The notes under the pieces were generated by a model that was not told the DNA's origin, ran no database searches, and saw only the letters and a list, made by a program, of their open reading frames with translations. Below are positions 6,226 to 61,499 of a DNA stretch of 64,000 bases, piece by piece. How positions within the stretch are numbered: the first letter of the stretch is position 1; each line of letters starts with the position of its first letter. The position numbers were made by a program, and so were the translations under genes. The stretch is from Sycon ciliatum (Eukaryota > Porifera > Calcarea > Leucosolenida > Sycettidae), in contig NC_088645.1 in the NCBI RefSeq assembly GCF_964019385.1, forward strand, positions 19,953,158 through 20,017,157, in the 5' to 3' direction.

Positions 6226-6953
6226 ATACTTTGTTTCTGCCCCTGATTATTCTGGCCACTGCATGTGCGCTTTCCGTCATACTGAATGTGGTATTGGCGG
6301 TTGTGATGTGGCGACGTGTCAGACCTAGTTCGCTATGCCTGCCCGCATCGTGCACTTCATCGCCTCCTGAGGAGCCAGCAACCATACCGCGGGGCTGGAA
6401 CAGTGGAATTCGCAGTGTGGTGGGACAAGATCGAGAATGGCGTGAGAGCAATGCGTACGACTACGTGGTCTCGTCGGCGCTGCGTCGCGTTCAGTTGAGC
6501 GACGGCGGGTCGAGCCGTGGTGTATCCACAAGTGACAATGCCCTGCAGTCATCCGGGAGAATGCCTGTACAGCAGCCTCTACCTGTTGTGGCAATCAACC
6601 ACCAATATTTAGACCTTGCAACAGGCACAGCGTGTCCAGGACTGAATAGTAGCGGAAGTGCTAGTGGAACTACGGATATACGGCGCCACCAACAGCTTTC
6701 AGCCCCTGCAAGATTGTCGCGAATTGGCTACCAGCAGCTCTTGTGTAATGGTTCGCCACGCCACGAGTATCAAGGCTTGGATCTTAGATTTGTTCAAATT
6801 CAAGCACGTCACGGCTCGCGTTTGCACAGAAATCGCATAGCTCTACGTAGAGCGATGAGCCTACCCGAGTGCATATATACCCATGATGGCAAAGACATAC
6901 TGGACATGTTAGCTTCATCGTCTCACAGTGATTTTCCTGAAACCTATTTTTGA
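6226..6953 (+). CDS. array gene 1: TM and tyrosine-motif tail exon (5' exons not found)
   Basis: The exon begins after a pyrimidine-rich acceptor (TTTATCTTCACAG, ending at 6225) in phase 1, like every TM exon in this array, and runs to TGA at 6951-6953. It encodes DTLFLPLII..., a TM helix with the family motif LSVILN, a basic membrane-proximal MWRRVR (fits a cytoplasmic tail) and a tail of about 205 residues. Tyrosine motifs include NAYDYVV, YLDL, and YQQL followed after nine residues by YQGL, close to ITAM spacing. Unlike most paralogues it lacks the Trp just before the helix. The leader and mini-exon are not identified, so the gene model is partial. The family resemblance rests on the TM motif, the exon phase and the motif-rich tail. 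The function, membrane-proximal tyrosine-kinase signalling, is inferred only. Confidence 0.65.
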
Positions 6954-7045
6954 ACCCCCGCTGTATGAAGTCGATGGTGCAACCATTCAAGGAAATCTCC
7001 CCTGCTCAATAAGTACCATCAGTGCAGCGACAAGATCTGATTCCT

Positions 7046-7051
7046 ATTAAA
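7046..7051 (+). promoter_or_regulatory. possible polyadenylation signal of array gene 1
   Basis: ATTAAA about 93 nt after the gene 1 stop codon. Confidence 0.35.
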
Positions 7052-7121
7052 CACACGATAGTGGAAACTGTTTGCCTGCCCTGTTCAGTTGCAGATGTAC
7101 CCAGCTAATCTCTATTATGTT

Positions 7122-7248
7122 GAACAAACAATAATATGAGGATGACAAACGTGTTTTTACTCCGAGTTTCACACACTACAGTTTTCTGCCGACCGCTTTG
7201 TGCGTGAAACTCGGAGTAAAAACACTTTTTCATCCTCTTATTGTTTGA
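7122..7248. mobile_element. fold-back element
   Basis: Inverted arms of about 48 bp (left about 7122-7172, right about 7204-7248) share TTTTTACTCCGAGTTTCAC and its complement around a loop of about 30 bp. Non-coding and MITE-like. Confidence 0.7.
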
Positions 7249-9094: not shown

Positions 9095-9100
9095 TATAAA
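9095..9100 (+). promoter_or_regulatory. possible TATA box of array gene 2
   Basis: TATAAA about 75 nt upstream of the gene 2 start codon. The position would allow a 5' untranslated region of about 45 nt. Confidence 0.35.
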
Positions 9101-9173: not shown

Positions 9174-10577
9174 ATGGGCCAAGTCAAGGAATGGCCACGG
9201 GGATTCTCCACACGTTCATGGATCCTTGTCCTTGGAGCGCTTCTCGCCACAGAAGGTAAAGTGATCTGCACGCCTAATGCACCCGTTCTTGATTCACTTC
9301 ATTTTGTTGACGGTCACCCTATTGGAGAAGTGAACTTGATGGCAAGTTTGCTTTGTGTCTTACTTGCATTATATGTAGGAAAGGCAACATATCTGTATTT
9401 TTGAAGACATCCAGAGGTCGTATCCCAGTTGTTGTTGTTGTTGTTGTTACTTTATTTTACTTCACCAGAATTACAGGCAGTAGAATGCCTTCTCACTAGA
9501 CCAGGTCTAGTTCTCACAAAATGATGAAGAGAACTAGACCTGGTCTAGTGAGAAGGCATTCTTCTGTCTGTAATTTTGGTGAAGTAAAATAAAGTAACAA
9601 CAACAGCAGCAACTGGGATACGACCACTGGACGTCTTCAAAAATACAGATGTGTTGCCTTTCTTACCAGTTAGCAGATGGGACGACGGAATGAACAACGA
9701 CCTTATACTTTCGAACAAGCCGGTTGTTGAAGAGGAGCAGCTGGTTACTTGCGTTAAACAGAATGCCCTGGATCGACGTTGTTGACAGATGCGTGATCCT
9801 CATTAAGTTTGATTATTGTATGTTGCTGTGTCATTAATAGGATGTGTCTGATTGTGTACTCTGTGTTCAGGTACACTAGCAGATGATCATCACCCGGCCA
9901 AGGAGTCCTGTTCAGGTAAGACCGCATCGCGATATCGTTAGCATAATACCACTTAGGATTTCTGTGCAATGGATTGATAAACATGAGCTAGAACATGCCA
10001 TTACATACCATTACCTTCCATGCATGTGAATGTTCAGAACAGAGATTTTGTTAACTAAGAAAATCTGTAATACTGCATTTCGGGTTTCAGAGTTAGCCAC
10101 AACATTTATGCCAGTAGGTCATGTTTGATTCACTCACTACCACGCTGTGGGTTCTTCCGATCGTCGCCTGAGGCTGAGAGGTTTGAATCATCATCTTTTA
10201 TAAGCCGACTGGAATCTTCTCCAATTTCCGGTTCATGTTCACATTATGATAACTCGTTCAATCCTCTTTCTATTTTACGTGCAGTGTCAAGCGATACGTG
10301 GATACTAATAATCACCGGACTTGTGGCTCTAGTTCTCAGCTTCCTTTCTAACATATTTCTGCTGGTCGTCGTGCATCACCAACACCGTGCTGTTCAGAAA
10401 GCTGTGAGTAAGTGCGCAACGGCCACGACTGGAAACGAGTCGGCACCAGCATATCCGATGCATATCACGGCAATCAGCGTGCAAGGCGCGATACCAAATC
10501 CTGACAATCTCCAGACGGAACTACCAGCATATGTGGACGTAGTGACTGATCCAGAGCCCGGAAGAGCTGAGACGTGA
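9174..10577 (+). CDS. array gene 2: short-ectodomain single-TM protein with a short tail
   Basis: Three exons: 9174-9255 (leader), 9871-9915 (mini-exon) and 10285-10577 (TM and tail). Both introns are GT-AG and phase 1, and the joined frame gives 139 residues. The leader has a hydrophobic SWILVLGALLA core ending ATEG at the splice. The mini-exon adds GTLADDHHPAKESCS with a single Cys seven residues before the Trp that opens the helix (SSDTWILII). The helix carries LSFLSN, the family S-x-x-x-N motif, followed by HHQHRAV. The tail is only about 75 residues and has two tyrosines, in AYPMHI and AYVDVV near the end, with no ITAM-like pair. This is the smallest member and nearest in size to vertebrate ITAM/YxxM adaptors. 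Intron 1 contains a fold-back element. The exon model is well supported by internal frame and phase agreement; function is inferred from layout. Confidence 0.8.
9377..9664. mobile_element. fold-back element in intron 1 of array gene 2
   Basis: Two arms of about 140 bp (left about 9377-9524, right about 9530-9664) are near-complete inverted copies. They include the palindromic CTAGACCAGGTCTAG near the centre and a GTTGTT run. Transcripts through it would form a long hairpin. Confidence 0.8.
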
Positions 10578-12038: not shown

Positions 12039-14441
12039 CTGGTAATTCTGGAGGAACTGCACACGACCACAAGCCAGATGTTGACTTCAGTGAGTCACCA
12101 CTATGGTCATATCATGTTACAAACGTAATTTAAAAGTGACAACGTGTGCTCGTTTCGCAACACAGTGCACTACAGTGCCGAGATAACCATACCAGCGCCG
12201 TAGGTCGTCTTAGGATTGATTATTTAGGCGTGTGGACGTGAGGCGATGGTAGTTTTCTCTGGTCTCTCCCAGAGTATTGCCCTCAATACCAGGCACGGTT
12301 GCTTTATTTTTAATTCGAAAGCGTCAGACCAGCGAGATGCTGAGGATAAGGGCAGCCAGTAATTCATTTACCCATTTCGACTGAGCGCCTTCTGCGATTC
12401 TCGGAACACAGCCAGAAAAATATTTTTGTTAGGAGTATCCCATATCCATCAGCAATAGGGGCGTCATAATCGATGTAAATCTACAACGGTTTGCTTGTAG
12501 ATTGCTTAGTGAGACCCAGAGTGACATAGTAATGCGGTGACGTCACCAGGCATCAGTCATATTAACGTCGTGTGTACTAGTTGTACAATGGTGTCATTGG
12601 CCGGTAAGGTACCTAACATTGGAATTAACATTGATAAATAACGTGTCTATAATTATTTGCTTCAAAAACCAACTCCAGATTTTGCCAATTTATCTTGCGT
12701 GCTGGCTTGTTAGGCATGGTGGAGGCAGGAGATGCAGGTGGTTGTAGTTTTTATCGTTAGTCGCACACTACATTTATTCGGTTATTCGTAAAGTGCCCAT
12801 TACTGAGAGCTACTAACTCTGGGCCAACGCTGCTAAATCTCTTTGAGAGCTAGAATAAGGTGTATCTTGAAGAATTGTGATGACTGCATCGAAGTTAGCA
12901 CGTTACATGACACCAGGGGAAACCTCACAGGAGCATCCAATTGATTTGATCGCATTGAATGCTAATGTGTTACATTGCTGCAGGTCGGGAGGGAGTTTAC
13001 TAAAATTCAGACACAATTTTGCCTGTATTTTTCCTCCGTTTCAGAGGATTTCTGGATTGTATTCCTCTTCACCATGGCAATCAGCTGCTTCGGAAATATC
13101 GTTCTGATGGCGAATGCCCGCACTACGAGGATGGCGCTCAGACGGCGCAGATCAGCACTGGATACTAGCTATGCGTTCAAGGACTTGGCGAGAAAAGAAT
13201 CTGGCCGCATTCTACCAACACATTATGATACGATTCCATTTGATATTGGTCACAGCGCAGCTCAGCCTGATCTACAGACTCGGGTTCAGCCCAGTCTTCG
13301 GGATAACACACCGTTGCAGAAAAGACAGCGGAAATCTAACCAGGAGCTTGCTAACTTAGGTTTAAGAGCCTCATTGGCCCTAAGCACAGGATCTGCCTCT
13401 TCTCGTCTTCCTATAACCGCCCCCAGGCCGCCAACACAACAGAGAGCGGCATACACTCTACCCATGTCACCCATAGGCGACTTGCCGCAGCCCAGTCATG
13501 TAGGAAACGATTCATATGAAGCTATAGAGGAGATGCCAGTTTACACCGCCATCGAAGGTGGCGAGGGAAAAAACGAAACAGGCTCCTCAGGCAACGTGGC
13601 ACAAAAAAACATTTCCGTCGCAGAAAATGCAAGACCTGACCACGAATATATCGAGTTTGAAGAAGGGTGTGTTCTTGATCACGACAAAACACCAGCTGCG
13701 GATGCCTCGGCCACTGGTCCGGGAACTACCATTACCGATGATGACATGAGCGAGTCTGCGCTAGTTGAATCAACAGATACACGGGCTGAAGGTGGTTGCG
13801 TTAATCAGAATCAAACCGATTTCCAGGAAGACACCGGGTATCATGAGCTCTCAGAGGCCAGTATTGCACATCAAGATCACCAACAAGCTGATGCTGTGGA
13901 AGACACGTCAGATGGCATCAACGCACCTTATAGCAATGAATACAACAATCTGAATGCAGCTGGAGAAAAGGCTTTATCCAGTACTGACGACGATGGTGCC
14001 GCATCCACCAAGCCAGGTACCGAACACCTGCCCCACAGACAGCTTTCAAACCCACCTATGGTTAATAAGGCACCAACAAGTCCCTCCAGGGATTTCTCAC
14101 TGCCAGAAATCCACACCCTGAAGCCATCAACCTCGGCCAGCTCAAGTGATCATGATGAAAACGTGGAAGATGTCGAGCCAATCCAGGATCATGTATACCA
14201 GGGCTTGAACGCAGAACGGAGCAGGGAAAACACTTATCAGAGACTATCTACTACTGGAGAATCCTCCACTCGCGCCAGCAGACATTATGTAGGTCATCTC
14301 AAAACTACGGGAATAGCTCGCGAAGTAACTACAACACTGGACAAGGCGAAGCCATTGACGGAGCCCATCTCTAGACAACCAGAAGCCTCAACAGTCGTCC
14401 CGGTCGAGACCAATAGTCCATCTTGTTTAAAGATTGAGTGA
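12039..14441 (+). CDS. array gene 3: TM and tyrosine-motif tail, leader not found
   Basis: The secure part is the TM/tail exon at 13045-14441. It follows acceptor TCCTCCGTTTCAG in phase 1 and encodes EDFWIVFLFTMAISCFGN..., a shorter helix that keeps the family Trp and the S-x-x-x-N motif (ISCFGN), then a basic RTTRMALRRRR and about 430 tail residues ending at TGA. Tail motifs include SYEAI followed after five residues by YTAI (about 13514-13553) and YQGL followed after nine residues by YQRL (about 14193-14250), plus HEYIEF, GYHEL, YNNL and HYVGHL. A possible phase-1 mini-exon lies at 12039-12089 and codes GNSGGTAHDHKPDVDF. Its charged HDHKPD run is like gene 2, but it has no Cys. No leader exon was found upstream, so the gene may borrow the gene 2 leader or have one I missed. 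An ATTAAA lies near 14820. Confidence 0.6.
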
Positions 14442-15956: not shown

Positions 15957-16862
15957 GCTCATTAAATCTGACACGGCGAAAACACATTAAAATTCGCTGG
16001 TTACATGTCACCTCGATGCAATACACCATTCTACAGCTGTCAGTTCAGTTTGAATTCGACTCATGGTTGCACGAACGAGGCCCTGTTGGCCGAAGCAGCT
16101 TGCATTGGTTAGGACAATCTGTACTCTACGTTCATTCCTAAGCACACGTCGTGTGTACTAGCGTCATTAGGGGACATGATCAAGCATACAACTCCACGTA
16201 GACGTGCTAAGTTTACGCAGCTTGGCTGTAGCCTTTAGCTGGTGAGAAAACTGCAGCTCCTTACACTTCACTGTGAGCATATGGTACGAACATGCACGTT
16301 GGTAGCTTAGTTGACAGCTGAGTGCGACCACGATGTGGTATTGTCACATTTCTGCTGTCAAAGGTTCTAAAAGAAGACGGCTTTCGACATAACCGTTATT
16401 CCTATCTGTCACGTTTTGAGTCTCGACTCACACTGGCATAACTCCAATGCCAATGAACTTCACTGTGCCCTGTGAATGCCATGGCCAGCAGTAATCAACC
16501 ACGGACCAGCACAGGTCACGAAGAAGAGTGCAAGGTGGAAGTTAGCATTGAGCGGTCACGCCACACACAGTGATAACGGTTAGGAGTTGAATGGGTGGAA
16601 ATGTTCTGCTAACCTTACCGCGGCTTGTTATTAATACTGCATGCAGTATCTGTGGCACTTTAGAGTGATATTCCAACTCCTAGCTCTATAGATAGGAGCC
16701 ATTGGTAATAAGGAAGTGAGGAAGTTGATGGATTCATTGAAACCTCGGAAGTAGAGCTTCCACTGGATGCGATCTGGTCCAGCGGTTTGATAGATATTTT
16801 GACCAGCGGCAGTATTTCAATCTTGTCAGAGTCGTATGTAGGAAACCGCGCCAGATATGGAA

Positions 16863-19319
16863 ATGCAGACGCCACCGCAGGTCGCAGCCAAGCTGTTGAT
16901 AATCACAACCTGCCTTCTAGGTGAGTTCTAAGAGCCCCACTTCGCCTCACACAATACGTTCTGGTACATTGAAATCACGCCACGCCCCTAAGATCAGTCT
17001 AATGTTTGCTAAGTGAACAATGGATGCACAAGGTGATATCGCTGCATATATTCTGCTTAGGGTTTCTGCGAATAGAGTACCAGTATTCTGTTTGTTACGC
17101 GAAACAACCCCTGCAGGGCTGGAGCCAGGTCCACAGGGGTGGCCGTGGTGCAGTTTCATATCGGCCAAACGCCCAGTCATTTTCCCATACCCAATCTCAG
17201 TATCACAGGAGAAGGCATCTCCAGCTCTATAAATCTGACAGTTGCCGGTACACACTTTGTTTTCAAAGGACATCAGCCAGTACATTTTAAATAGCAAGAG
17301 TTTGCAGCTCGACGATCCCCCAGCCCAAGGCGGAATTTTCTAAATGGGTCTTTCGCAGTTGTTTGACTCACTGATGCCACCATGCGTAAAAAAACATTCA
17401 CGGGTCGCGTAAGACTCGGCTCGAGGCAGATGCGCAGATGCAGCTCCTAAGCCGTGGGAGGCGAGTAGATCAGACCCACCCCAAATTGGTCAAAGACCGA
17501 AAATCCCATTCATTGGCATCCATGTTTCCCTCCTGCCAGGTCACGAGTTCCCAATTAATGGTGCGTCTCAGGAACAAAATCCTTTCGATTTCAAGCAGGA
17601 CTTGAACCTGGTACCCTCTTTTTCTTAATCATGGTCTTAGAAAATCCCACTATGCCTGCCTGCGCAGCCAGAGATCAAATTACAAAGAAATTGTACATAC
17701 CAGCTGTGGTAGTCGAAGCAGGACAAGGGACGATAGATCGACGTGCCCTGAACCTGATGAACTCTCACCGTACATGTATCTACAAAACTAGCGCGGGAAA
17801 GCGTACGCACGTGATCATTGTTTTGCCAAAGAATGACGCAAGGGTTAAGGTTTCCGGATTTTCCGCCATGGATGAAACCACCAGAGCTCGAGATAGGAGT
17901 CGCATGCTCTTGGTCATGTACACTTGATAATAGTCCTCACTGAACTACTACAGCCCTTGAGTGCTAGTCAAATGAGAAGTGCATGTAGCATGGGTCATTC
18001 CATTCATAAGAAACTGGGAGGGAGGGACATGACATTTTTGGCCATACCAGTGGCGACAGCACTGCCACATTAGTAAATATCAACATATGTATTCTCTGCA
18101 AGCTGAAGAAGCAAAGTCTGACCTCTGAAATTCTCTTGCAAGCCTGTTTAAAATGTACTGTATGTTCTTCAAACCATTGTTGCAACATATACACATACGC
18201 CAACGTGCAGTCACGAAATCAGGAGAGCTTTGGATGCAAGTTTACCAGACACAGTATTTTTCCCCCAGCGTTATTGAGATACGTTCTGATGCCTATAAAC
18301 TAATACACGGTAAAACAATGGTAAATTTAACGAGTGTGTTGTAGAAAGGAATATTAAAATGTGGCATCACCAGTGCTAGGAAACAACACACAATAATAAT
18401 ACGATACTAGACCCGCGCCGAAAAGGTTGCATTCACAGAAATCTAGTAGTCCAGGGCACATGCCGGTACAGACGTATCTAATTAAGGTGTGGAGCAATCA
18501 GGGACCTGATAGTCCACGTTTTGCTCATATGTGTAGTCCACACATACACACGTACATTAAAAATATATAATGTGTACACCATAACGAGGAGAGGAACAGC
18601 AGTCCTCTGGGTGCTACATGTTGTGTCACAAATACATATAATGCAAAATACTCCGCATCCCTGCATTGCATACATGTTCATTACTGATCGAGGGCTCGAT
18701 CTTCTATCACACTCTGTCTGTGTAAACTGCTTATATACATTGCTCAGATTTGATTCAAGGCGAAACGACTGATCCAGCATCCAACCAAAGTACGTCAACC
18801 AGTATGTCAACCGAAGCGGGTAAGCCATTGTCCAGTCGTTTTACAAAAGGTTCTGCCGGGCATGTTTCTACCACCGAAAATGATTCCTGCAGGCTGTACC
18901 AGCTAGGGAAAATTGAAATATCTGTCTGTATAAGAATACGACAGGTTTCGATGTACACCTTCTACCCAAAAGCGGAATAATCAATGGTCACCCATGTTTC
19001 TTGCTGGTCAATTTATGAATTTTGTGTATTGTCTTCCAGATACTGCTACACTGCAGATGTCTTGCACGAGCAACTGCACAAGCACTGGAAACGGTAAGTT
19101 GCTTTTAATAGAATTTTCTCATTTCATCTCGTTTGTGACTTCCGATTTTATTCAACAAATGAGAGTCAATCCCAACTCATGAACAAACACACATACACCC
19201 CCCCCCCCCCCCACACACACACACCGTTGACCATTGACCGTTTGACGCCCATCGCCGGAGGCGATGATAGCGATGCTACAGCAGAAGCCATAGCAGCTTG
19301 TGCTGGGATCGCACCGTTC

Positions 19320-19960: not shown

Positions 19961-21155
19961 GTTGTAACGGAATCTCAGCCATTCAGTTCCCCGGGACGCA
20001 GGACACAAAGGACAAGACTGGTTTGTTTTACATAATATATTTGGACATTACGGAAAGGTAGACTACTCTGACAGAGACGAACAAGAAGACTGACAAAAAG
20101 GACTCTCGACTACAACATCGCGCATGCTCATATCACACATGCACGCGACTAGACGAGACAGTTTGGGGAATGCCATCACACAGGAAAACAACACATCATT
20201 TCACAAGACCTGCCCCCTTGATGACATTCCACAAAATAATAAACCGACACCACGTTCCACATGCACAACAGCAAAAGGAACCACAGCAGAACAGAAAAAC
20301 GAAAACCAACCATCAACCTAGAGCCGACGCTCTAAAATAATATCCGGGCCACGAAACAGGGCCAAACACAAACCTAGAGCCGACGCTCTACAACCAGGCC
20401 ACGCCAAACAAGGCCAACCGAAATAAGGGAGCCGAAGCTCCAACAAAATAATAACATGCGCACAGCCGCACCAAATATATCTACAACAAAAACAATGGAG
20501 AACAACAGAACGAATACAAGAGCAACAGACCGACAACAAGCAAACTGAAACAACACAGCAACAAGCAACGAACTGAACAGAGAGAGAACAACACAGCGAG
20601 CAAGACAACAAGACGAACAACAAGGACGGCACACAGTCGGTGACGCCAGACTCGTCCACTGTCCTCTGGCGAGCCACGGCCACAGGCTCCGTCCCGGTTC
20701 CTGCCGTCTCAGGCTCCAGTCCACAGTGACTGTTCTAGTCCATCACCTTCTCTGCCTCCTCTCCGTGTCGTCTTCCGCTCCCACCAGCTCTTCACCTCCT
20801 CCGCTCCCATGCTCTGTTTACTTCAAAGTAACAGCTACTTCGTTGTTCACGACGACGACTCATGACAAACTTACTCATCCTCTGCGTCCCGGGTTTCGGC
20901 ACCACGTTGTAACGGAATCTCAGCCATTCCGTTCCCCGGGACGCAGGACACAAAGGACAAGACTGGTTTGTTGTACATCATATATTTGGACATTACGGAA
21001 AGGTAGACTACTCTGACAGAGACGAACAAGAAGACTGACAAAAAGGACTCTCGACTACAACATCGCGCATGCTCATATAACACATGCACGCGACTAGACG
21101 AGACAGTTTGGGGAATGCCATCACACAGGAAAACAACACATCAGTTCACAACAGA

Positions 21156-47470: not shown

Positions 47471-47524
47471 CTCATACCCCTCACCCTTGATAATCATACC
47501 TTATTTGACATTCTCATAATTATA

Positions 47525-47530
47525 AATAAA
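47525..47530 (+). promoter_or_regulatory. possible polyadenylation signal of array gene 8
   Basis: AATAAA about 265 nt after the stop; the same signal occurs at the same distance after gene 10 (57161-57166). Confidence 0.45.
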
Positions 47531-47576
47531 GAGACTCGCCGATGACTGGATAACATGAAATACGCACCCACGAAGA

Positions 47577-47661
<85 letters not shown>

Positions 47662-47755
47662 CACACAGTCACACACACACACACACACACACACACACCG
47701 TCGCGCACGCACACACACACGCACGCACACACACACACACACACACACGCACATA
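47577..47755. repeat. CA microsatellite
   Basis: Interrupted CA tract; the duplicate copy is at 57214-57325 and is shorter. Confidence 0.95.
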
Positions 47756-48277
47756 CATACCTGCATGTACAGGAAAAAGCCCATTAAATAAAACTCGCCA
47801 AATTAAATGTCAATGGTGGTAACAGCAAATAACTGAAAGAGCATGAATAGCTTCAAAATCTCTGAAACTGTTGTCTCGATCTGACCAGCCGTTCAAGCGT
47901 AATGACCGAAAATGTGCCCTTGCAAGGAAAGTTTTTTTGTGAAACGTTTCTTTTGAACTCAACGGCAGTTGTCGTCTTATAATGTCTCTGGTCTTCCTTT
48001 GGACGACGAATTTTATCACCCTTTTCCACTAATTTGATATGATCGAGGCATCCTGCAGCTTCAGAATTCAAATACTTGAAGTATCCTTCTCACCATTCAT
48101 GTTTTCAGTTCATTCCCCTGGTCTTCCGTTTGGTCCATCTTTGAATTGATGCACTGCAAAATTGGATTTCTTCCACACCCTGCTATTCAGGCATGATGCG
48201 TGTGATTTTGGTTTCTACTTATAAATGTAGGCTTTAGCTGTCAGAGTTCAGATGCGTTTTTCTTCTCTCTAAGGGTT

Positions 48278-48600
48278 ATATCAGGAGTAGATAAACAAGA
48301 GTGTGCAACTCGCGGATGGGTAGGCCCACGGCGGAATTTTTTGTTGACGTAATCTTTTCGACGACGCACGCGCTGCGAGTCTTTCGGAGAGTTTTCCCTC
48401 GTGCCCTTGGCCGGGCTTTACACTACAAGGTGACTGGTCGGTGCCCAGCACGTGCTCTCACACTGCTCTGTGGCAAACTGCGCGTTTCTCTGAAAAAAGG
48501 TGACGTCAACAAAAAATTCCGCCGTGGGTGGGGGTATCTGCAGATTGTGCAGGAGAGATCCGGAGTTGCACACTCTTGTTTATCTACTCTTAGTTATATA
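48278..48600. mobile_element. fold-back element, left duplicate
   Basis: Ends pair as GAGTAGATAAACAAGAGTGT and complement; a second paired block is CCACGGCGGAATTTTTTGTT and its complement (about 48328 and 48515). Present at the same place in both duplicates, so it predates the duplication. Confidence 0.75.
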
Positions 48601-49178
48601 TAACATGTTTCGGTCATGGGATTATATTTTTAGCCCGCATAAAATGGTTTTAAAATTTACGCATGCACGGTATTGTAAAAATGCTACGCCTTTCGATTCC
48701 TCTTTCAGTTCGCTCCCCTGATTGTATACATGCAATACTCTTTCCTTTCTGTTCATGGAATTTAGTGTTCTTGCACTGGTGGGTGCTTCAATTTAACCCT
48801 TTGTGAGTCACCGGAACACGACAAAAAATCTTCATATTTGCGTTGATCCTGTTTTACTCGTGCTAACACAGGTGGCTGAGAAGATGAACGATCGCTGCTG
48901 ATATATCTATTCCCTTCCTACCCCCCCCCCCGCTTCAAATGTGTATGCAAGAAAACATCATTTTACGCTTGTTGTTGATGCCATTTTGAGAAAGAAATTC
49001 ACATTGGCAACGCGTGGGTTCTGGTCAGAGAACGCCACCTGCACAGATACGTGTGTGATAGTATGAGCTGTGTTTGACAATGCCCAGTTTGCATTCCATG
49101 CATGGTCGCGACAGGTTACGAGAACAATGTGATGTATCAACGTACAAGCGCCGCATCATAAGAACCACATGTCCATAC

Positions 49179-49273
49179 CACATGTCCCTTACATGTCCCT
49201 TACATGTCCCTTACATGTCCCTTACATGTCCCTTACATGTCCCTTACATGTCCCTTACATGTCCCTTACATGT
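49179..49273. repeat. 11-bp tandem repeat, left duplicate
   Basis: About nine copies of ACATGTCCCTT, nearly perfect. Confidence 0.9.
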
Positions 49274-50522
49274 CGGCTGACAATGTGCCCTCTTTAAAGG
49301 AAAAACTAGCTATCCCAATCTAAGGTTTGGTGAAATTATTGTTTCTTTGGGGAAATTGGGTAGGCCCCAAACCGCAGCTGGCGATTATCAATCGCCTTGA
49401 CTTTACACATGAGTGACTCATGACTGCCATACTTAGCACATGACAGGTATATCGAACATGTTCCTTTCCAAGCCCTCGAGAATGCATAACCAACTGCTCA
49501 TTACACCCTGTGTTCGGGGGATTAACGCGTTATCCGTTCAGCGTCGGTAGGCTGAGGAAGATTGCTCCTGAAGTGCCTGAACTTATAGAGCACTCTCCAG
49601 GCCAAACCATGGGCGGGATTACAAACGTGCTGAGGCACTCCGTTCCCAATGCGACAAACACATTGTGTACGCCAGATAATATTTCGTACTAATATTTATA
49701 AATTCCTGTAAAGTTCTGTTCTTGACCCTAGTATGTTTATGCTGTTTCAGCTGTACCCCGCTTTTCGGATCGATTCCTTAATGCCACAAGGACGCATTTT
49801 AATCTTATCTCGACTGCTGCCTTGACTGTTAAAGATAGAATTTACATTCTCTATTTTAATATCATAAAGTCATGCTTTGGCTAGTCCGATACTGCACTGC
49901 AAAGATCTCTCAAGCTGTGCCTTTCACTACCCATCACTGACTTAGACCACCTACATCTGAAGTGATCATCTTTATAGAGTATACTACAGCACTCACGTTG
50001 TACCTATCCCAGCTCTTATGGGCAGATTCGCACTGAGCGATGAATGGGCTTGGTGGCCTACTTGACTTCCGGACGTCCGGATATTCCCGCTTGACTTCCA
50101 AACATCACTTGTACAATTTTCACTTCTAGGAATGTCTCAGCACCTGTCCTACGTGAACACCTTTTCCGCTATCGCGTGATACGACTCGTATCATGCTAAC
50201 ATTTGACGCCATATGACTTTAACGCTATTTCTCAGAGCCTGCAAGAATAGGCATCTAGGGCCGAGAGATGTGATCTCGATAGCAGAATAAATAAAGGATA
50301 AGAAACTCAGCTCATGATGTTAGTATTGTACATCTTCACAAGTAAACCAGTGAAGAGAGGTACCTTCGACTGCATCTGTTAGAATATTCTTAGTGAAGCT
50401 TCCGATAGAGAGGGGAGATTCACTTATTGAAGCTTGAACTTGGTGTCTCCAATCTGTTTGGACAGTTCAAGATAATTCAAACGCGCACCTGAACCACGTT
50501 TCTCTCATAAAGAAAGCTGAAG

Positions 50523-53300
50523 ATGCCTAGGTCCACTGTGTATCAGATCACGATTTTAGTGATCACTGTGTTCACACTCGAAGGTAAGCATGGGTCAATT
50601 CCAGTCCAGTGTAATAGTGGATCACTCTTCACCGCTTAGAGTACGCCTGGTACATTTGATCATTGTACTTCGCGATGTTTCACAAACCTGGTATCTAGCG
50701 TGACATCCACTCCAGTATGTTGCTCAAACCACCATACACGTATCGAAATATGTTTTTGGCACTTGAAAATGCACTTCAATCATGTTGTTCATACATGTTT
50801 GCCCATGTCGAGGCATCCAACTGCACTGCTCCAATCAGGATAATATTTCCGAGTAGTATGTGAAAATATAACAATTTTATATTCTTCAAGCATTTTTTAC
50901 TTGAAAGGAGATGCGGGCATCGCATTGTGACTGAAAAACGTCCTCTGATTGACTGTTTGCAGGCTTTGCAGACGCAAATAGTAAGGCAGTGGTATCTTCA
51001 TCATCATGTACGATCGAAGGTGAGCTAATAACGTACTGCAGCACCTAAAGAAGTAGAGAGCTGAGAGCCTAACCTAGGCATACGGTAGGATGATTCACAT
51101 TACAATCGCAATGTGGGGGCAGGGACAGTTGGGCATCATCGATTGTTAGTGATGGAGAAAGTAGCCATAGGGCATTTTTTTACTATTAGTAAAGCCCTAC
51201 TTGAAAACAGGTGGAGAAGAAAAAGAAACGAGGAAAAGGACGCAGCATAGGGGATGTAGGGACGACGTACCGATGTGCTGAGAGCAACTCAACCGACCAG
51301 AGGTCTCGGCGTCAGCGTTGAAAATAGGCATCGAAAAAGAGGGGGAGGGGGGATTGTACAAGAACAACTGGAAAACAAACAGAATTAGGCCTGGGACCTG
51401 ACGTGTTGAGCACTGACAATACATTCGGTCTATACTGCCAAGAATAGAATGGCTGATCGTTGCGAATGTGACTTGCATTTGAAATAGAACGTCTTGTACC
51501 ACGATCGTAAGGGAATCCTCTTTTGGTGAGTAGAGAATTGTGCAGTTACATAATAATGTCATTTTATTGCTTACGCCGAGAAAAAAGGTTTTGCCGTCAC
51601 GTAAATGTTTTAAGGCCAAGTCTTCTAATGTGCTAAGATGAACAGGTTTTTCCCTTGTGTGTTGTGTTACAGAACTTGATACATGGAAGATAACAGCACC
51701 ATCAGCCATTGCAGCTATGGCGGTTAGCATCTTGGGAAATATTAGCTTGCTAGTCGTTATACAGGTTGCACAAAACGATATACACGCATTCTACATAGCA
51801 CACCATGGGCTATCCAAGAGATTCAACCGTTTACTCCAACCAGAAAGGAAGCCTGCATCAAAGTGTTCTGACCAAGACAGAATGGCTGTTTGGCAAAATG
51901 TGGATTGCGAAGAAATGTATAGCTCCTTGGACAATGTTACTGAAGGCGAAGTTCATGGCAGAGGGCGAAACACCGCTACTGAGAATTTGGATGACCAAGA
52001 TACGTATTGCTCCCTTGATACCGCCACTGAAGGCAACGGCAGGCGCCCTCTTCAGTCTAATGTGGTCATGGCCAATTCAGGTGCTGATTATGAGGAAAGC
52101 CCACTACTCGGTCCTATCGACGAGGATGCGGTGGTGGACGAAGTCCATGGGCCTAGTGAGCTGCCTATTTTGGGGCCAAACGCAAGCACGCCACGAGCAG
52201 CTCTAGGGCTGGAGGATTCCGTCCGCTCTGGTGGGAAGCCTGGGAAGTCAAGAAAGAGGCAGGATGGAAGTGAGAGTTCATCGAGTAGCACATTGTACGA
52301 AGACCTGACGGAATCAAAGGTGTATGAGGACGTGTACGGAAACGAGCCGTCAACGGTCGTTTCAAACAGAACCAGTGGCACATGTTTGTATGAACATGTC
52401 CACAACCATAACGATATTTTACTGCGGGCCAATCCCAGCTATGGCATACGGCAAGGTCAGTGTAACACTCCTGTGAATACAGAAAACCAATTTTATGTTA
52501 GTGGTTCGCATGCTTCCACGGCATTCTGCCTTGCTCGTGCGGATAGTGGTTCGTGCAGCCCTGTAGTACCCCAACCTGGGAGCCGTGCTAGCGAAAACCT
52601 AATGAATGGAAACTCTGCCAACGCAGACTACATCGAAGTCATAGCACCAAGTTCAGATGACGAGCAAGCCAGTTTAAAGACAACGGATTGCGATTCCACG
52701 TCTGTCGTCAGCTTATTCAACAAATCGGACTTGCCGCAGTACTCAACAGGAGTAAGAGACACCCCTGTGAACACAGGAGGCCCTCTCTATGCTAGTGGTT
52801 CGCAGGAAGAAAACTCTTCCCCCGCATTCTGCCACGAGGTTTCAGATACTGGCACGGACAACTCTCTGGTGCCTGAAACTGAAAGTAGTGCTAGAGAAAC
52901 CAGAATAGATGCAAAATCTCACAGCGCAGACTACATCGAAATCATCGCACCAAGCGCCATTGTGAAGCAATCTGGGGTAAATTCTACGGATTGCGATTCC
53001 TCTTCTGACGCCAGTTTATTCATCCAATCGGACTTGACGCACCACTCTAGAGTAAGAGACACTCATGTGACTACAGGATACCCTCTTCACGCTCGTGGTT
53101 CGCAGGACGAAACATCTGCCGCCGCATTCTGCAACCAGAGTGCAGATACTGGCACGGGCAACTCCATGGTATCTCCACATGGGAACAGTGCTGGAGAAAA
53201 AAGAGTAGTTGTAAACTCTGCCAACGCAGACCACATCGAGGTCATAGCACCAAGTTCGGATGTGGAGCAAGCTTGTGAAACTACAGTGCATTGCGAATGA
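50523..53300 (+). CDS. array gene 9: single-TM protein with a tripled tyrosine block
   Basis: Exons 50523-50583 (leader with YQITILVITVFTLE), 50963-51019 (57-nt mini-exon, GFADANSKAV to SSSCTIE) and 51673-53300 (TM/tail), phase 1, 581 residues. One ectodomain Cys lies eight residues before the Trp of ELDTWKITAP; the helix holds VSILGN. The tail has MYSSLD, TYCSLD, LYEDL-x5-YEDVYGNE and NPSYGI. Then three tandem blocks of about 100 residues (tyrosine codons at 52629, 52932 and, replaced, 53232) each contain a PLYASGSQ-like and an ADYIE(V/I)IAPS motif. In block 3 both tyrosines are His (PLHARGSQ, ADHIEVIAPS). Possible AATAAA at 53540-53545 and 53870-53875. This exon could be skipped in favour of the gene 10 exon downstream. 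Confidence 0.8.
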
Positions 53301-55005: not shown

Positions 55006-55714
55006 TATCCATGATTTCATTGACTCAACATCCGAGTTCAGATCTACACGCAGTATTTTATTTCAATACCAGAATGGGTATGGAGGCGTTTACTGGTGTC
55101 AGGTGGTGCAAGTGCCACTGCAAAAATGCCCCTCTTTTGTCGCCATCTTCCCCGATTGCCTTCTAAGCTCTGTTGAGATCTCAACGTAGGGATAGTTAGG
55201 AACAGAATTGCTGTCCGAATCTAAGTGTAACTGTTCAAAGTGCGAATGCCTTAACAGAGATGTAGTCATATTCACGGCATGCATCCTTTGGCCCATCTGG
55301 CGTCGGTCTGTAAATTTGGCTTTTACGCAAATTGTCAGATTATGTCCAACAGATGGTTGATAATTAATATGGTGGTAAAGACACAACTGGCAATATGTCG
55401 GTAAACACACGCTTGCTCACACATGCTCTCTTAGCTGCAAAGTTCTAGCAGAGAGCTCTCCTTCTCACCACCACCACCATCAGTTGGCGCCTAGTCGATG
55501 CTTGGCGCCTAGTCGATGTTAACCGCCATATTGCCAGGTGTGTCTTCACCACCATTTTTATCAACCATAAGTACAGCTGCAGTGGTGTAGAACGTTATGT
55601 TCTTTTATTGAATAACGTGAAACAAATGCTCTTGTCGTCACCGGAATTTCGTAGGACCAAGTCTTCTACTCTGGAACGATGAACATAATCTTTCCCTTCT
55701 GTGTTGTGTTACAG

Positions 55715-56895
55715 AACTTGATACATGGAAGATAATAGCATTCTCGGCCATTGCAGCTATGACGGTTAGCATCCTGGGAAATATTACCTTGCTAGTCATT
55801 GTACAGGTTGCACATAACGATGTACACGCATTCTACATAACATGCCACGGACTATACAAGAGATTCAACCGTCTACTCCAACCAGAAAAGAATTTTGCAT
55901 CAAAGTGTTCCGCCCAAGAAAGAATGGCTGTCGATAAAAATGTAGATTGCGAAGAAATGTATAGCTCTTTGGACAATGCCACCGAAGGCGAACTTCACGA
56001 CAAAGGGCAAAGCACCGTTACTGAGAATTTGGATGGCCAAGATTTGTATTGCTCCCTGGATACCGCCACTGAAGGCAACTGTAAACGCCCTCCTCAGTCT
56101 AATGTGGTCATGGCCAATTCAGGTGTGGATTATGAGGAAGGTTCGCTACTTTGTCCCATGAACGAGCCAAGCTATGATGCGGTGGGGGACGGTGTGCCTG
56201 CTCCTAGCGATCTGTCAACTTTGGGGACAAATTCAACCATGCCAGGACCAGCTCCAGGGCTGAGGGATGCAGTCTGCCGCGATGGGAAGCGCACGAAGTC
56301 AGGAAAGCGGCAGGTTGGAAGCGAGAGAGCATCGAGTAGCACATTGTACGAAGACCTGACGGATTCAAAGGTGTATGAGGACGTGTACGGAAACGAGCCA
56401 GTCGTATCAAACAGGACGAGTGGCACCGGTCTGCATGACCATGATATTCACAACGGTAACGAGATTACACTTCGGCACAATCCAAGTTATGGCATATGCC
56501 AATACACGCAATCTGAGACGGCTGAGAATTCAGATGAACTCCTCTACGCTAGTGCTTCACGGGAAGAGAATGCCCCTGCCATATTATGCAATGAGGTTGC
56601 AGATACGGATCCAGGGAGCTCAGCCAACGAAGACTACATCGAAATCATCCCAATAAGTACAGATGCGGTAGAATCTGATGAACGGGCAACGGATGGCAAT
56701 TCCAGTTACGGCGTCAGCCCGTACGGCCAATTGAATTTGCACCATGATTCTCGAGTAAGAGACCCGGAAAACATGGGTGGACAGCAGAAAAGTGATGCTT
56801 CTCTGGGTGGTCTGCAAAAGGGCCATCCATGGATCCAAGCAGCTCTGCGGTACCCAAGCTTGCGAGCACCAGTGAATACAACCGGATTGCTTTAA
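55715..56895 (+). CDS. array gene 10: TM and tail exon without its own leader
   Basis: The exon follows acceptor GTGTTGTGTTACAG in phase 1 and encodes ELDTWKIIAF..., helix with VSILGN, then KRFNRLLQPEK and a tail of about 360 residues with MYSSLD, LYCSLD, SYDAV, LYEDL-x5-YEDVYGNE, DYIEIIPIS and SYGVSPYGQL, ending at TAA 56893-56895. No leader or mini-exon was found in the 2.4 kb upstream. Joined to the gene 9 leader and mini-exon it would give an in-frame 432-residue protein, so it may be an alternative last exon of gene 9, or a stranded duplicate. Its acceptor region and first part resemble gene 9, the rest gene 8. Confidence 0.65.
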
Positions 56896-57213
56896 ACTGT
56901 GTCACAGAAACTCAATGTATCTACATCGACCTTATTGGACCCAGTGCAAAGACTGTGGTAGGCCCCAGTTAAAATGAGCTGATGCTTGACCTTCCCAACT
57001 ACGAGCGCTATCAAGATGAGTATGAGCATGATGGATATAAAGACCACGGCGAACTTACACGTACCCTTAGCTCAAACCACGTGATGTATAAAACTAATGT
57101 ATTGCCTCAAACATCCTCACCCTTGATAATCATACCTTATTTGACATTCTCATAATTATAAATAAAGAGACTCGCCGATGACTGGATAACATGAAATACG
57201 CACCCACGAAGAC

Positions 57214-57273
<60 letters not shown>

Positions 57274-57325
57274 CACACACACACACACGCACGCACACAC
57301 ACACGCACACACGCACGCACATACA
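57214..57325. repeat. CA microsatellite, right duplicate
   Basis: Shorter version of the tract at 47577-47755. Confidence 0.95.
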
Positions 57326-57367
57326 TACCTGCATGTACAGGAACAAGCCAATTAAATAGAACTCGCC

Positions 57368-58277
57368 AAACGAGAGAGCTTGGAAGCTCAGGGCCCTACG
57401 CTATGCTTTGTTACTTAGCTCATCGTGCATGTTGTGGGAACTGATGGAAATGTTTCCTGGAACGGCGCTGACTCTGCCGAGCGCGCGCGTTCTGGAGTCG
57501 ACGGGATCCAGTCTCAGCCGACGTTTCCTGTGACCGGCGCTGACTCGCCCGTTCACGCCTATTTTGGAGACGACGGGATGTCTCTTCCAAATTATGTTTT
57601 TACTGACGCATCCTATCACCTATTCGGCAACTAACATCCATTCTAATTTCATTTCCTCCTCCATTGCAGGTTCAAACAATTTCCCACGCTGCGTCAGGCA
57701 GCGTAACTCTTCTCCCTGCATCACCATCCATCTCCAGCAACCGTCTCCACTCACAGCTCATGCCTCTGCCACCACTGTACTCCTCCGAGCTTCGCAGTTT
57801 GAAACCATTCGGGGGTCAGCTACACCACCGCGAATGGAGAGACGAGGACGACAACGGTCGTGACTGAAAAGACACTGCCTTGGCGACCGCGTCGCGGAAC
57901 CCTCGCCCCAGCAAATTCAGAAATACGCCAGGGAGCTACGAAAAGTGCAACCGTCCCCTTCAAGCACAGTTGCAACACACAGGGAGTCGTATACATGTAC
58001 ATGTACATAATATTGTGGCCAGCTGTTTGTAGCCAGCTGTGTTTGATGGTACGGTATGGTACGGGACAGATACGGGAGCCAGCAAATGGCCAGCTGTGCG
58101 ATACGGTACGCGACAGATACGGGATAGCGCCAGGCGTGACACAAACAAACAAACAAACAAACAAACAAACAAACAAACAAACAAACAAACAAACAAACAA
58201 ACACCAAATTAAAGCTGTGTGGACCCTGGCTAGCGCCAGACGTTACTGAAGTAACGTCTTCTGCATAGCTACGGGAA
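57368..58277. mobile_element. 0.9-kb insertion in the right duplicate
   Basis: Sequence absent from the left copy between CTCGCCAA and ATTAAATGTCAATGG. It contains protein-like stretches: 57425-57629, with GADSPVHAYFGDDGMSLPNY, and 57664-57867, ending GQLHHREWRDEDDNGRD-stop. A TTTCCTCCTCCATTGCAG acceptor-like sequence lies between them. It also contains several inverted short motifs (GGCCAGCTGT) and a CAAA tract. It may be a transposon that captured exon pieces; the class is not recognised. Confidence 0.5.
58140..58203. repeat. CAAA tetranucleotide microsatellite
   Basis: About 15 perfect ACAA units. The open frame of repeating FVCL or NKQT residues is an artefact. Confidence 0.95.
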
Positions 58278-58748
58278 TTAAATGTCAATGGTGGTAACAG
58301 CAAATAACTGAAAGAGCATGAATAGCTTCAAAATCTCTGAAACTGTTGTCTCGATCTGACCAGCCGTTCAAGCGTAATGACCAAAAATGTGCCCTTGCAA
58401 GGAAAGATTTTTTTGTGAAACGTTTCTTTTGAACGCAACGGCAGTTGCCGTCTTATGTCTCTGGTCTTCCTTGGGACGACGAATTTTATCACCCTTTTCC
58501 ACTAATTTGATATGATAGAGGCATCCTGCAGCTTCAGAATTCAAATACTTGAAGTATCCTTTTCACCATTCATGTTTTCAGTTCATTCCCCTGGTCTTCC
58601 GTGTGGTCCATCTTTGAATTGATGCACTGCAAATCTGGATTTCTTCCACACCCTGCTATTCAGGCATGCTGCGTGTGATTTTGGTTTCTACTTATAAATG
58701 TAGGCTTTAGCTGTCAGAGTTCAGATGCGTTTTTCTTCTCTCTAAGGG

Positions 58749-59070
58749 TTATATCAAGAGTAGATAAACAAGAGTGTGCAACTCGCGGATGGGTAGGCCC
58801 ACGGCGGAACTTTTTGTTGACGTAATCTTTTCGACGACGCACGCGCTGTGAGTCTTTCGGAATGTTTTCCCTCGTGCCCTTGGCCGGGCTTTACACTACA
58901 AGGTGACTGGTCGGTGCCCAGCACGTGCTCTCACACTGCTCTGTGGCAAACTGCGCGTTTCTCTGAAAAAGGTGACGTCAACAAAAAATTCCGCCGTGGG
59001 TGGGGTATCTGCAGATTGTGCAGGAGAGATCCGGAGTTGCACACTCTTGTTTATCTACTCTTGGTTATAT
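58749..59070. mobile_element. fold-back element, right duplicate
   Basis: Same element and position as 48278-48600. Confidence 0.75.
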
Positions 59071-59655
59071 ATAACATGTTTCGGTCATGGGATTATATTT
59101 TTAGCCTGCATAAATTTTTTTTTAAATTTACGGATGCACGGTATTGTAAAAATGCTACGCCTTTGGATTCCTCTTTCAGTTCGCTCCCCTGATTGTATAC
59201 ATGCAATACTCTTTCCTTTCTGTTCATGGAATTTAGTGTTCTTGCACTGGTGGGTGCTTCAATTTAACCCTTTGTGAGTCACCGGAACACGACAAAAAAT
59301 TTTCATATTTGGGTTGATCCTGTTTTACTCGTGCTGACACAGGTGGCTGAGAAGATGAACGATCGCTGCTGATATATCTATTCCCTTCCTACCCCCCCCC
59401 CCCGGCTTCAAATGTGTATGCAAGAAAACATCATTTTACGCTTGTTGTTGATGCCATTTTGAGAAAGAAATTCACATTGGCAACGCGTGGGTTCTGGTCA
59501 GAGAACGCCACCTGCACAGATACGTGTGTGATAGTATGAGCTGTGTTTGACAATGCCCAGTTTGCATTCCATGCATGGTCGCGACAGGTTACGAGAACAA
59601 TGTGATGTATCAACGTGCAAGCGCCGCATCAAAAGAACCACATGTCCATACCACA

Positions 59656-59757
59656 TGTCCCTTACATGTCCCTTACATGTCCCTTACATGTCCCTTACAT
59701 GTCCCTTACATGTCCCTTACACTTCCCTTACATGTCCCTTACATGTCCCTTACATGT
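59656..59757. repeat. 11-bp tandem repeat, right duplicate
   Basis: About nine copies of ACATGTCCCTT, one changed to ACACTTCCCTT. Confidence 0.9.
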
Positions 59758-61006
59758 CGGCTGACAATGTGCCCTCTTTAAAGGAAAACTAGCTAGCCCA
59801 ATCTAAGGTTTGGTGAAATTATTGTTTCTTTGGGGAAATTGGGTAGGCCCCAAACCGCAGCTGGCGATTATCAATCGCCTTGACTTTACACATGAGTGAC
59901 TCATGACTGCCATACTTAGCACATGACAGGTATATCGAACATGTTCCTTTCCAAGCCCTCGAGAATGCATAACCAACTGCTCATTACACCCTGTGTTCGG
60001 GGGATTAAAGCGTTATCCGTTCAGTGTCGGTAGGCTGAGGAAGATTGTTCCTGAAGTGCCTGAACTTATAGAGCGCTCTCCAGGCCAAACCATGGGCGGG
60101 ATTACAAACGTGCTGAGGCACTCCATTCCCAATGCGACAAACACATTGTGTACGCCAGATAATATTTCGTGCTAATATTTATAAATTCCTGTAAAGTTCT
60201 GCTCTTGACCCTAGTATGTTGATGCTGTTTCAGCTGTACCCAGCTTTTCGGATCGATTCCTTAATGCCACAAGGACGCATTTTAATATTATCTAGACTGC
60301 TGCCTTGACTGTTAAAGATAGCATTTACATTCTCTATTTTAATATCCTAAAGTCATGCTTTGGCTAGTCCGATACTGCACTGCAAAGATCTCTCAAGCTG
60401 TGCCTTTCACTACCCATCACTGACTTAGACCACCTACATCTGAAGTGATTATCTTTATAGAGTATACTAGCAGCACTCACGTTGTACCTATCCCACCTTT
60501 TATGGGCAGATTCGCACTGAGCGATGAATGGGCTTGGTGGCCTACTTGACTTCCGGACATCCGGACATTCCCGCTTGACTTCCAAACATCGCTTGTACAA
60601 TTTTCACTTTCAGGAATGTCTCATGACCAATTTTACATCGTAACAGCTAGCACCTGTCCTACGTGAACACCTTTCCGCTATCGCGTGATACGATTCGTAT
60701 CATGCCATCATTTGACGCCATATGACTTTTAGCGCTATTTCTCAGAGCCTGCAAGAATAGGCATCCAGGGCCGGGAGAAGGTAAAAATACTCAGCTCATG
60801 ATGTTAGTATTGTACATCTTCACAAGTAAGCCAGTGAAGAGAGGTACCTTCGTCTGCATCTGTTAGAATATTCTTAGTGAAGCTTCCGATAGAGAGGAGA
60901 AATTCACTTATTGAAGCTTGAACTTGGTGTCTCCAATCTGTTTGGACAGTTCAAGATAATTCAAACGCGAAACTGAACCACGTTTCTCTCATAAAGAAAG
61001 CTGAAG

Positions 61007-61499
61007 ATGCCTGGGTCCACTGTGTACCAGGTCACGATTTTAATGATCACTGTGTTCACGCTCGGAGGTAAGCATGGGTCAATTTCAGTCCAGTGTAATA
61101 ATGGATCACTCTTCACCGCCTAGAGTACGCCTCGTACATTTGATCATTGCACTTCGCATTGTTTCATAAACCTGCTATCTAGCGTAAAACCCACTACAGT
61201 ATGTTGCTCAAACGACGATACACGTCTCGAAATATGTTTTTGGCATTTGGAAATGCACTTCAATCATGTTGTTTATACAAGTTGGCCCATGTCGAGCCAT
61301 CCAACGGCCCAATCAGGATAATATTTCCGAGTAGTATGTGAAAATATAATTTTTTTATATATTCTTCAAGCAATTTATATTTGAAAGGAGATACGGGCAT
61401 CGCATTGTGACTGAAAAACATCCTCTGATTGAATGTTTGCAGGCTTTGCAGACGCAAATAGTAAGGCAGTGGTATCTTCATCATCATGTACGATCGAAG
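61007..61499 (+). CDS. array gene 11: leader and mini-exon only (partial)
   Basis: Exon 61007-61067 (leader with YQVTILMITVFTLGG) and 57-nt mini-exon 61443-61499, identical in protein to gene 9 (GFADANSKAV to SSSCTIE), both phase 1 with intact GT-AG sites. No TM/tail exon follows within the remaining 2.5 kb. That space holds a hairpin element and a dead minus-strand LINE. The tail exon may lie beyond the window, its intron having been expanded by insertions, or may be lost. If lost, the two exons would code only a short secreted peptide. Confidence 0.6.

Follow-up and report, generated by a model that had tools for sequence, protein, structure and literature searches.

What do the products of a long run of same-strand sponge genes do, when each appears to combine almost no extracellular part with a single membrane helix and a tyrosine-rich tail? 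The question is raised by a 64,000-nt stretch of the Sycon ciliatum genome (NC_088645.1, 19953158-20017157; contig C3), hereafter the window, in whose coordinates positions are given below. The window holds eleven units, A to K, all on the plus strand: ten transmembrane (TM)/tail exons (A-J) and the leader and mini exon of K. A preliminary description of this DNA had counted about eleven such genes between 6226 and 61499, and that span indeed starts at the TM/tail exon of gene A and ends at the mini exon of gene K. We propose, with a probability of about 0.65, that the array encodes single-pass signalling adaptors, a family specific to the lineage of Sycon ciliatum and expanded in tandem.

Full three-part models can be built for seven units (B and D-I). 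Each keeps its frame through phase-1 joins between a leader exon, a mini exon of 45-57 nt with a Cys near its 3' end, and one exon that encodes both the TM helix and the tail. The seven in-frame models had been described earlier, as had the topology of leader, tiny Cys-bearing ectodomain, one TM helix and long tyrosine tail, and both hold: leader, ectodomain and helix are found in all seven and in three public proteins (P0001-P0003) as well. The earlier figure of 15-45 residues for the ectodomain survives in part. Predicted by eye, ectodomains reach ~44 residues in D, but C has only ~8 and no leader was found for A, C or J, the search for leaders of A and J yielding none that convinced. A scan of 184 kb, made up of the window with 40 kb of upstream and 80 kb of downstream sequence, looked for phase-compatible exons of 42-60 nt whose splice scores sum to 10.5 or more. 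With this threshold, set knowingly below the weakest known member (10.7), it returned 13 on the plus strand and 0 on the minus strand. Ten of the 13 carry a Cys near the 3' end, and all ten belong to the family.

Protein models deposited for S. ciliatum repeat these joins, namely P0001 (gene H) and P0002 (I or K) of the EukProt set, which bear 'scpid' names, and P0003 (D) and P0004 (C) of the NCBI set; the exon plan as first described is thereby repeated for D, H and I. The deposited names include 'dentin sialophosphoprotein-like' and 'uncharacterized protein LOC135812553'. Our model of gene D, built before the database searches, equals P0003 at every residue save a missed 72-nt mini exon, and C and D are identical residue by residue to P0004 and P0003 over the shared exons. 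H is 95.3% identical to P0001 (423 aligned residues, whole protein), and I and K are 90.4% and 88% identical to P0002. In the accessible parts of three sources, 'scpid' names are of the kind used for the Compagen S. ciliatum proteins (PMC6526912), the protein set is cited as SCIL_T-PEP_130802 (PMC6040629) and the coding sequences as SCIL_T-CDS_130802 (PMC4265532); the 'T' would stand for transcriptome. We note that the published proteins differ from the assembly copies of H, I and K by 5-12%, unevenly along H, as if the loci held very diverse alleles or underwent gene conversion between genes.

The array is even longer than the tandem expansion first reported. It continues for ~50 kb downstream of the window, all on the plus strand, with the K tail and seven further genes or tail frames, which brings the total to 18 genes or gene parts, 11 of them inside the window and 7 beyond it. 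In the 40 kb upstream, protein searches and searches for the helix motif S-x-x-x-N, described below, found no family member. Part of the array stems from a recent segmental duplication (45983-47692 copied to 55582-57328 at 90%, and 47801-51047 to 58276-61527 at 94%), from which J emerged leaderless and K acquired both its leader and its mini exon.

Broken or partial members, such as the 3' end of F, the leaderless J and a tail at 104 kb with a reverse-transcriptase-like end, raise the prospect of a decaying or transposon-borne cluster of little function. In F, the frame is lost relative to G near 37316 at a CT-rich stretch; F also has an insertion, and G-like sequence runs on to ~38072 (by eye). 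The ratio of nonsynonymous to synonymous substitution rates (Ka/Ks) between paralogous tails is 0.58 for H/I (bootstrap 0.43-0.77), 0.62 for F/G (0.45-0.84) and 0.59 for I/J (no bootstrap), and E/H is saturated; the H/J value of 0.74 (0.47-1.29) has an interval that includes 1 and so fits decay. With ratios below 1 for H/I and F/G, seven window models in frame (F ending early) and models present in both the EukProt and NCBI sets, we find such a cluster barely credible.

Phase 1, in which the array joins lie, is the usual phase for the shuffling of ectodomain exons, and D already has an extra mini exon. The genes could, on these grounds, be a truncated receptor family that draws ligand-binding ectodomains from other exons or from alternative splicing. 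None of the four public protein models has a larger ectodomain, however, and ten other open reading frames (ORFs) of the window show no Pfam domain above cut-off. Searches of the S. ciliatum assembly (538 Mb, 313 contigs) with P0003, P0002 and 571 of the 659 residues of a tail frame at 112 kb, moreover, gave matches confined to the array locus (4/4, 6/6 and 2/2 of those listed). A truncated receptor family is in our view very improbable.

The preliminary description found no recognised family for these genes, and database searches agree. Protein-database searches with three queries returned S. ciliatum proteins only (2, 1 and 1 hits; ~8000 scored candidates each); such a search needs shared five-residue words, and distant sponge relatives may consequently be missed. 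For gene A, which was included in query A3, no matching protein was found. Among the tails and P0001-P0004, Pfam gives weak sub-threshold hits and nothing above cut-off, and its model of the immunoreceptor tyrosine-based activation motif (ITAM) picks out gene C only, at 11.6 bits against a cut-off of 22.2 (E 0.44). Homology of the tails to a known, unrelated family was looked for as well, and none lies above the Pfam cut-off. A PDB sequence search with query A2 and P0003 gave no match at E up to 1. Among the papers listed, in a coverage that mostly excludes subscription journals, titles and abstract openings hold no description of this family.

All ten window TM helices share the motif S-x-x-x-N, which occurs in 2 of 192 other hydrophobic segments of the window (27 low-complexity segments dropped). 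The segment scan recovered nine true family helices, all with the motif; it missed F, and a tenth row near D was out of frame. Downstream, the motif is present in K and N. We take the 'GN' of the E-J helices to resemble a motif in the first TM helix of G-protein-coupled receptors. We set aside the idea of a first helix of a class A receptor: the tails are polar and show no second TM helix to the eye, and in A and D the residue that precedes the Asn is Leu.

The tails are ~60-520 residues long and acidic in eight of nine. Analysis of the nine tails A-I (J was left out of this count as a copy of H) reveals Leu, Ile or Val at position +3 of 59 of 114 Tyr, against a background of 0.154 (p = 2e-19), and seven less redundant tails give 44 of 84 (p = 4e-15). 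At other positions from -6 to +8 the frequency is 0.08-0.19, with the exception of -1 (31/114, 0.27). Centring on Ser, Thr or Asp gives no +3 peak; Phe gives 0.26 at +3 and 0.31 at +5. Asp and Glu are mildly in excess around tail Tyr at +1 (0.26) and +4 (0.25) versus 0.154. With the first 80 residues of each sequence excluded, YxxPhi counts exceed those of residue shuffles in the eight tails C-J (p of 0.015 or less). A scan of the 184 kb for ORFs with a TM helix plus YxxPhi returned 16, namely 12 array tails on the plus strand, one minus-strand ORF and, at 100.6 kb, three low-complexity frames; the scan left out B, F, L, M and the 98- and 106-kb frames. Other motif types are also found: NPSY is common to F, H, I and J, and YEN or YGN is present in these four and in G. 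The cassettes of gene E begin YTTA or YTNA, not YxxL, and five of the six have a second Tyr at +12. The AlphaFold2 model of P0001 (seven sequences) has a mean predicted local distance difference test score (pLDDT) of 34.8, with pLDDT below 50 for residues 91-434, and predicts an unstructured tail.

The tails had been likened to those of ITAM adaptors, a label that is not fully supported: YxxPhi is enriched and D holds a strict Yxx[LI]x6-8Yxx[LI], but the other nine window tails lack the strict pattern, and the ITAM spacing is not significant against the abundance of YxxPhi. Downstream, the strict pattern is present in N, the 106-kb frame and the 112-kb tail, for four of 12 tails. The ITAM-spaced pair of N reads YASLSEMSPSGEYSSL, and the tyrosine pair of H, at a spacing of 9, reads YEDLPDSKVYEDV. 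A Y-Y distance of 9 occurs in F, H, I and J, one of 13 in A, and both in C. Pairs at Y-Y 9-13, a range chosen post hoc, number 14 where 6.0 are expected (p = 0.0025), and 8 where 4.05 are expected if only the window tails are counted (p = 0.051); the control spacings give 0 against 4.9 expected (5-8) and 8 against 19.9 (14-30).

Several results weigh against the reading of the array as signalling adaptors. Under a null that keeps the YxxPhi tetrads, strict ITAM spacing in the 12 tails is not enriched beyond the abundance of YxxPhi (4 vs 1.95, p = 0.13), nor with Val allowed (7 vs 3.6, p = 0.065), nor at x6-12 (12 vs 8.4, p = 0.13), and seven window tails hold 2 x6-8 pairs where 2.43 are expected. 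This null errs on the strict side, since it makes 76 YxxPhi against 67 observed; with p = 0.07-0.13 under this stricter null, we claim no enrichment of canonical ITAM spacing. For A (p = 0.05) and B (p = 0.27), YxxPhi counts do not exceed those of shuffles, and the strict pattern also occurs in an unrelated upstream minus-strand ORF and in low-complexity frames. Tail Tyr are not significantly conserved between paralogues (17/28 vs 297/552 other residues, p = 0.30); 11 of 15 YxxPhi Tyr are conserved, and Tyr conservation was set aside as evidence because it is not significant.

The helix raises objections of its own. No acidic TM residue is present in nine of the ten window genes (F has Asp beside the Asn), and S-x-x-x-N is absent from the downstream genes L and M and from those at 98, 104 and 112 kb. 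A profile of the E-J helices recovers A-D without significance (E = 0.13 for B, 0.69 for D and 5.8 for C, with A absent from the list), and two minus-strand frames outrank D in that search. A single origin of all the genes is therefore unproven, and A-D are tied to the family through exon plan, position, tail type and S-x-x-x-N, not through overall sequence. The evidence as a whole consists of sequence and model, and the signalling role is a predicted one.

Finally, YxxPhi doubles as an endocytic sorting signal and by itself is the AP-2 consensus. The array could encode cargo or sorting proteins that cycle between membrane and endosome with YxxPhi as AP-2 signals, and a short ectodomain would suit a sorting or recycling tag. 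We consider this quite improbable: a tail has up to 11 sites, many of them distant from the membrane, the hydrophobic -1 and the Asp/Glu excess at +1 and +4 better fit the preferences of kinase substrates, and the post hoc excess of Y-Y 9-13 pairs also stands against it.

The same tails could instead belong to TM scaffolds of the LAT, SIT or TRIM kind, which would act downstream of other receptors as constitutive docking platforms, without pairing stably with a ligand-binding chain or depending on Syk. Consistent with such a role are the length of the tails and their many isolated Tyr sites, the mixing of phosphotyrosine motif types (YxxPhi, YxN, NPxY) within one tail and the leaderless gene C with ~8 residues outside; S-x-x-x-N could serve self-association. 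The Cys-bearing mini exon kept in ten array genes and the strict ITAMs in four tails argue for a different role, and no juxtamembrane CxxC palmitoylation site is seen by eye in the ten window genes. We judge scaffolds of this kind unlikely, if deserving of serious attention, and continue to favour single-pass signalling adaptors.

A tandem-SH2 kinase had been named as a possible reader of the tails, and the Sycon genome has a Syk-family gene, on contig C1. A search of the genome with the tandem SH2 domains of human SYK gives 20 matches, the two best of which are the N-SH2 and C-SH2 exons, which share a strand and are separated by 1.4 kb. In phmmer searches of the PDB, both SH2 exons match SYK first and then ZAP-70 (3e-35 and 1.7e-28). 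For the exon with HRDLAARN the top match is an EGFR entry, which aligns over two stretches, and ZAP-70 and SYK come next. By sequence, Sycon encodes a Syk-family tandem-SH2 kinase, although its exons are not joined into one model; we infer that it may bind the array tails. A kinase exon frame of this gene contains about three repeats of the activation-loop stretch SRALGLGNDYYRV. The accessible part of PMC9601881 places Syk-family kinases in lineages from sponges to primates and names no sponge partner of Syk. The Schistosoma kinase SmTK4 is said, in the part of PMC2820527 that is available, to be without ITAM-binding sequence, so that Syk without ITAM is possible.

How might such adaptors work? 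The ectodomain would be too small to bind a ligand alone, and the mini-exon Cys may form disulphide dimers. The S-x-x-x-N face would pack these dimers or pair with ligand-binding receptor chains encoded elsewhere. Once a receptor is engaged, Src-family kinases would phosphorylate the tail tyrosines, on which SH2 proteins could dock. Paired motifs (in D, C and downstream genes) would bring in the tandem-SH2 kinase of the Syk family found in the sponge, other SH2 or PTB proteins would be recruited by single motifs, YxN and NPxY, and differences between genes in the number and type of cassettes may tune the output.

A stronger version of this reading takes the array to be a sponge-specific, independently evolved counterpart of the vertebrate ITAM adaptor system, in which one locus of ~18 germline genes or gene parts feeds a Syk-family kinase. 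We put this forward tentatively, as possible rather than probable; if true, receptor-adaptor-Syk signalling arose, or was re-invented, in a sponge lineage, outside vertebrate-type immunity. An immune or self-recognition role, to which the array expansion alone points, is not fully supported. The locus offers a concrete set of candidate partners for Syk in an animal with a Syk-family gene, and makes it testable whether adaptor-plus-Syk signalling predates, or converged with, immune receptors. It also reveals cassette-wise change of tyrosine tails inside one locus.

Table 1. Parts of the array genes and the Syk-family gene (window coordinates unless a contig is named).
Feature	Position	Strand	Basis or remark
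Gene A candidate first exon (MRNNGSAPDLQNCSYSLVNTE), no leader	5937-6000	+	donor score 9.6, phase 1; prediction only
Gene A TM + tail, 242 aa, 4 YxxPhi	6226-6953	+	open frame, SxxxN TM, phase-1 acceptor
Gene B leader exon	9174-9255	+	donor 7.9
Gene B mini exon (GTLADDHHPAKESCS)	9871-9915	+	mini-exon scan
Gene B TM + short tail, 1 YxxPhi	10285-10577	+	full model
Gene C first exon (MVSLA), no leader	12588-12603	+	NCBI LOC135812553 = P0004; donor 9.0
Gene C TM + tail, 465 aa, 7 YxxPhi, 2 loose pairs	13045-14441	+	100% to P0004
Gene D leader exon	16857-16920	+	identical in P0003
Gene D extra mini exon, 72 nt	18748-18819	+	found from P0003
Gene D mini exon, two Cys	19040-19093	+	P0003; mini-exon scan
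Gene D TM + tail, 11 YxxPhi, strict ITAM YEALTPSRAGSVYQSL, ~37-aa cassette duplicated	25662-27268	+	full model, P0003
Gene E leader exon	30329-30428	+	donor 11.2
Gene E mini exon	30584-30640	+	mini-exon scan
Gene E TM + tail, six YT[TN]A cassettes ~60 aa apart	30953-32634	+	full model
Gene F leader exon	35622-35682	+	
Gene F mini exon	35900-35953	+	mini-exon scan
Gene F TM + tail	36238-37316	+	frame ends early vs G
Gene G candidate leader exon, weakest leader	40306-40390	+	donor 7.0
Gene G mini exon	40607-40663	+	mini-exon scan
Gene G TM + tail exon	41250-42430	+	full model
Gene H leader exon	44876-44936	+	residues identical in P0001
Gene H mini exon	45636-45692	+	residues identical in P0001
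Gene H TM + tail exon	46107-47260	+	P0001
Gene I leader exon	50523-50583	+	
Gene I mini exon	50963-51019	+	mini-exon scan
Gene I TM + tail, ~300 bp repeat in 2.4 copies	51673-53300	+	P0002
Gene J TM + tail, copy of H tail, no leader	55715-56895	+	duplicated block ~45983-51047 to 55582-61527
Gene K leader exon	61007-61067	+	
Gene K mini exon	61443-61499	+	TM + tail exon outside window
Gene K TM + tail exon	65536-66561	+	downstream of window
Gene L leader, mini, TM	downstream of window, after K tail	+	
Gene M leader, mini, TM	downstream of window	+	
Gene N tail	92781	+	downstream of window
Downstream tail frames	98007, 104566, 106332, 112285	+	106332 frame shows no own TM
Syk-family gene L033	C1:65936500-65946400 (9.9 kb)		SH2 exons + kinase frames with glycine loop, HRDLAARN, DFG

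Around the array, the upstream minus-strand ORF with the strict ITAM pattern lies at -3787 and is otherwise unlike the family. A 158-aa stop-to-stop frame at 433-909 on the minus strand, with likely start MAAISHPVQVTIENNSGFSMNF, matches nothing in Pfam at E up to 0.5 or in the PDB at E up to 1, and is probably an unrelated neighbour gene. At 104566-106086, an array tail runs into sequence that we take to be reverse-transcriptase-like, as we do a fragment at 62902-63297 on the minus strand, for which Pfam gave no match. Positions 20000-21000 belong to a high-copy repeat found on many contigs, with at least 78 matches from the 40 candidates scored among 582, many of which extend over 1 kb at 90-96%, and 27903-28660 is a satellite-like array of a 17-bp unit, GAGTGGTCCCCTTATCA, in ~42 copies with 72% matches. 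Scans of the window for tRNA and Rfam families returned nothing.

How, then, does the array compare with known systems? The ITAM adaptors CD3-zeta (CD247), FcR-gamma (FCER1G) and DAP12 (TYROBP) have the same leader, tiny Cys-bearing ectodomain, single TM helix and repeated YxxL-like tail motifs, and the Syk-family tandem-SH2 kinase is likewise present in the Sycon genome. The likeness that the preliminary description drew to these proteins fails in the membrane: ITAM adaptors, disulphide dimers that associate with a receptor chain, have a TM Asp that pairs with a basic TM helix of the receptor, whereas the array, with no acidic residue in nine of ten helices, has a conserved intramembrane Ser and Asn instead. 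In contrast to those of ITAM adaptors, the array tails are longer (except B) and lie in one exon, strict ITAMs occur in some members only, and no sequence homology was found.

The preliminary description had also stated that no described family has such long tails, which overlooked the transmembrane adaptor proteins (TRAPs: LAT, LAT2/NTAL, LAX, PAG, SIT and TRIM). Similarly to the array, TRAPs have a very short ectodomain, a single TM helix and a long, disordered multi-tyrosine tail, a likeness for which disorder in the array is taken from the P0001 model only and which fits less well for B, with its short tail and one YxxPhi. SIT and TRIM are disulphide dimers, most TRAPs are without a cleaved leader, and LAT, PAG and NTAL have a juxtamembrane CxxC palmitoylation motif. 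The ten window genes, by contrast, lack CxxC, no homology to TRAPs was found, and the array is a tandem of 18 genes or gene parts. We found no papers on TRAP evolution.

Invertebrate allorecognition receptors, which have ITAM/ITIM-like tails, form families that are linked in the genome, and the ectodomain of Hydractinia Alr is Ig-like. According to the accessible part of PMC12065747, Hydractinia Alr and Botryllus FcoR are, like the array, expanded families with tyrosine motifs, and the Botryllus families have Ig/Sushi ectodomains. Unlike Alr and fester/FcoR, the array has ectodomains of 8-44 residues, with no folded Pfam domain in P0001-P0004.

By homology, as tested at the sequence level, the array is a member of neither the ITAM adaptors nor the TRAPs, and its origin is probably independent of known adaptors. 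On our best reading by analogy, it may work most like a blend of the two, joining the repeated YxxL motifs, Cys-bearing ectodomain and available Syk-family kinase of CD3-zeta to the long multi-tyrosine tail of TRAPs.

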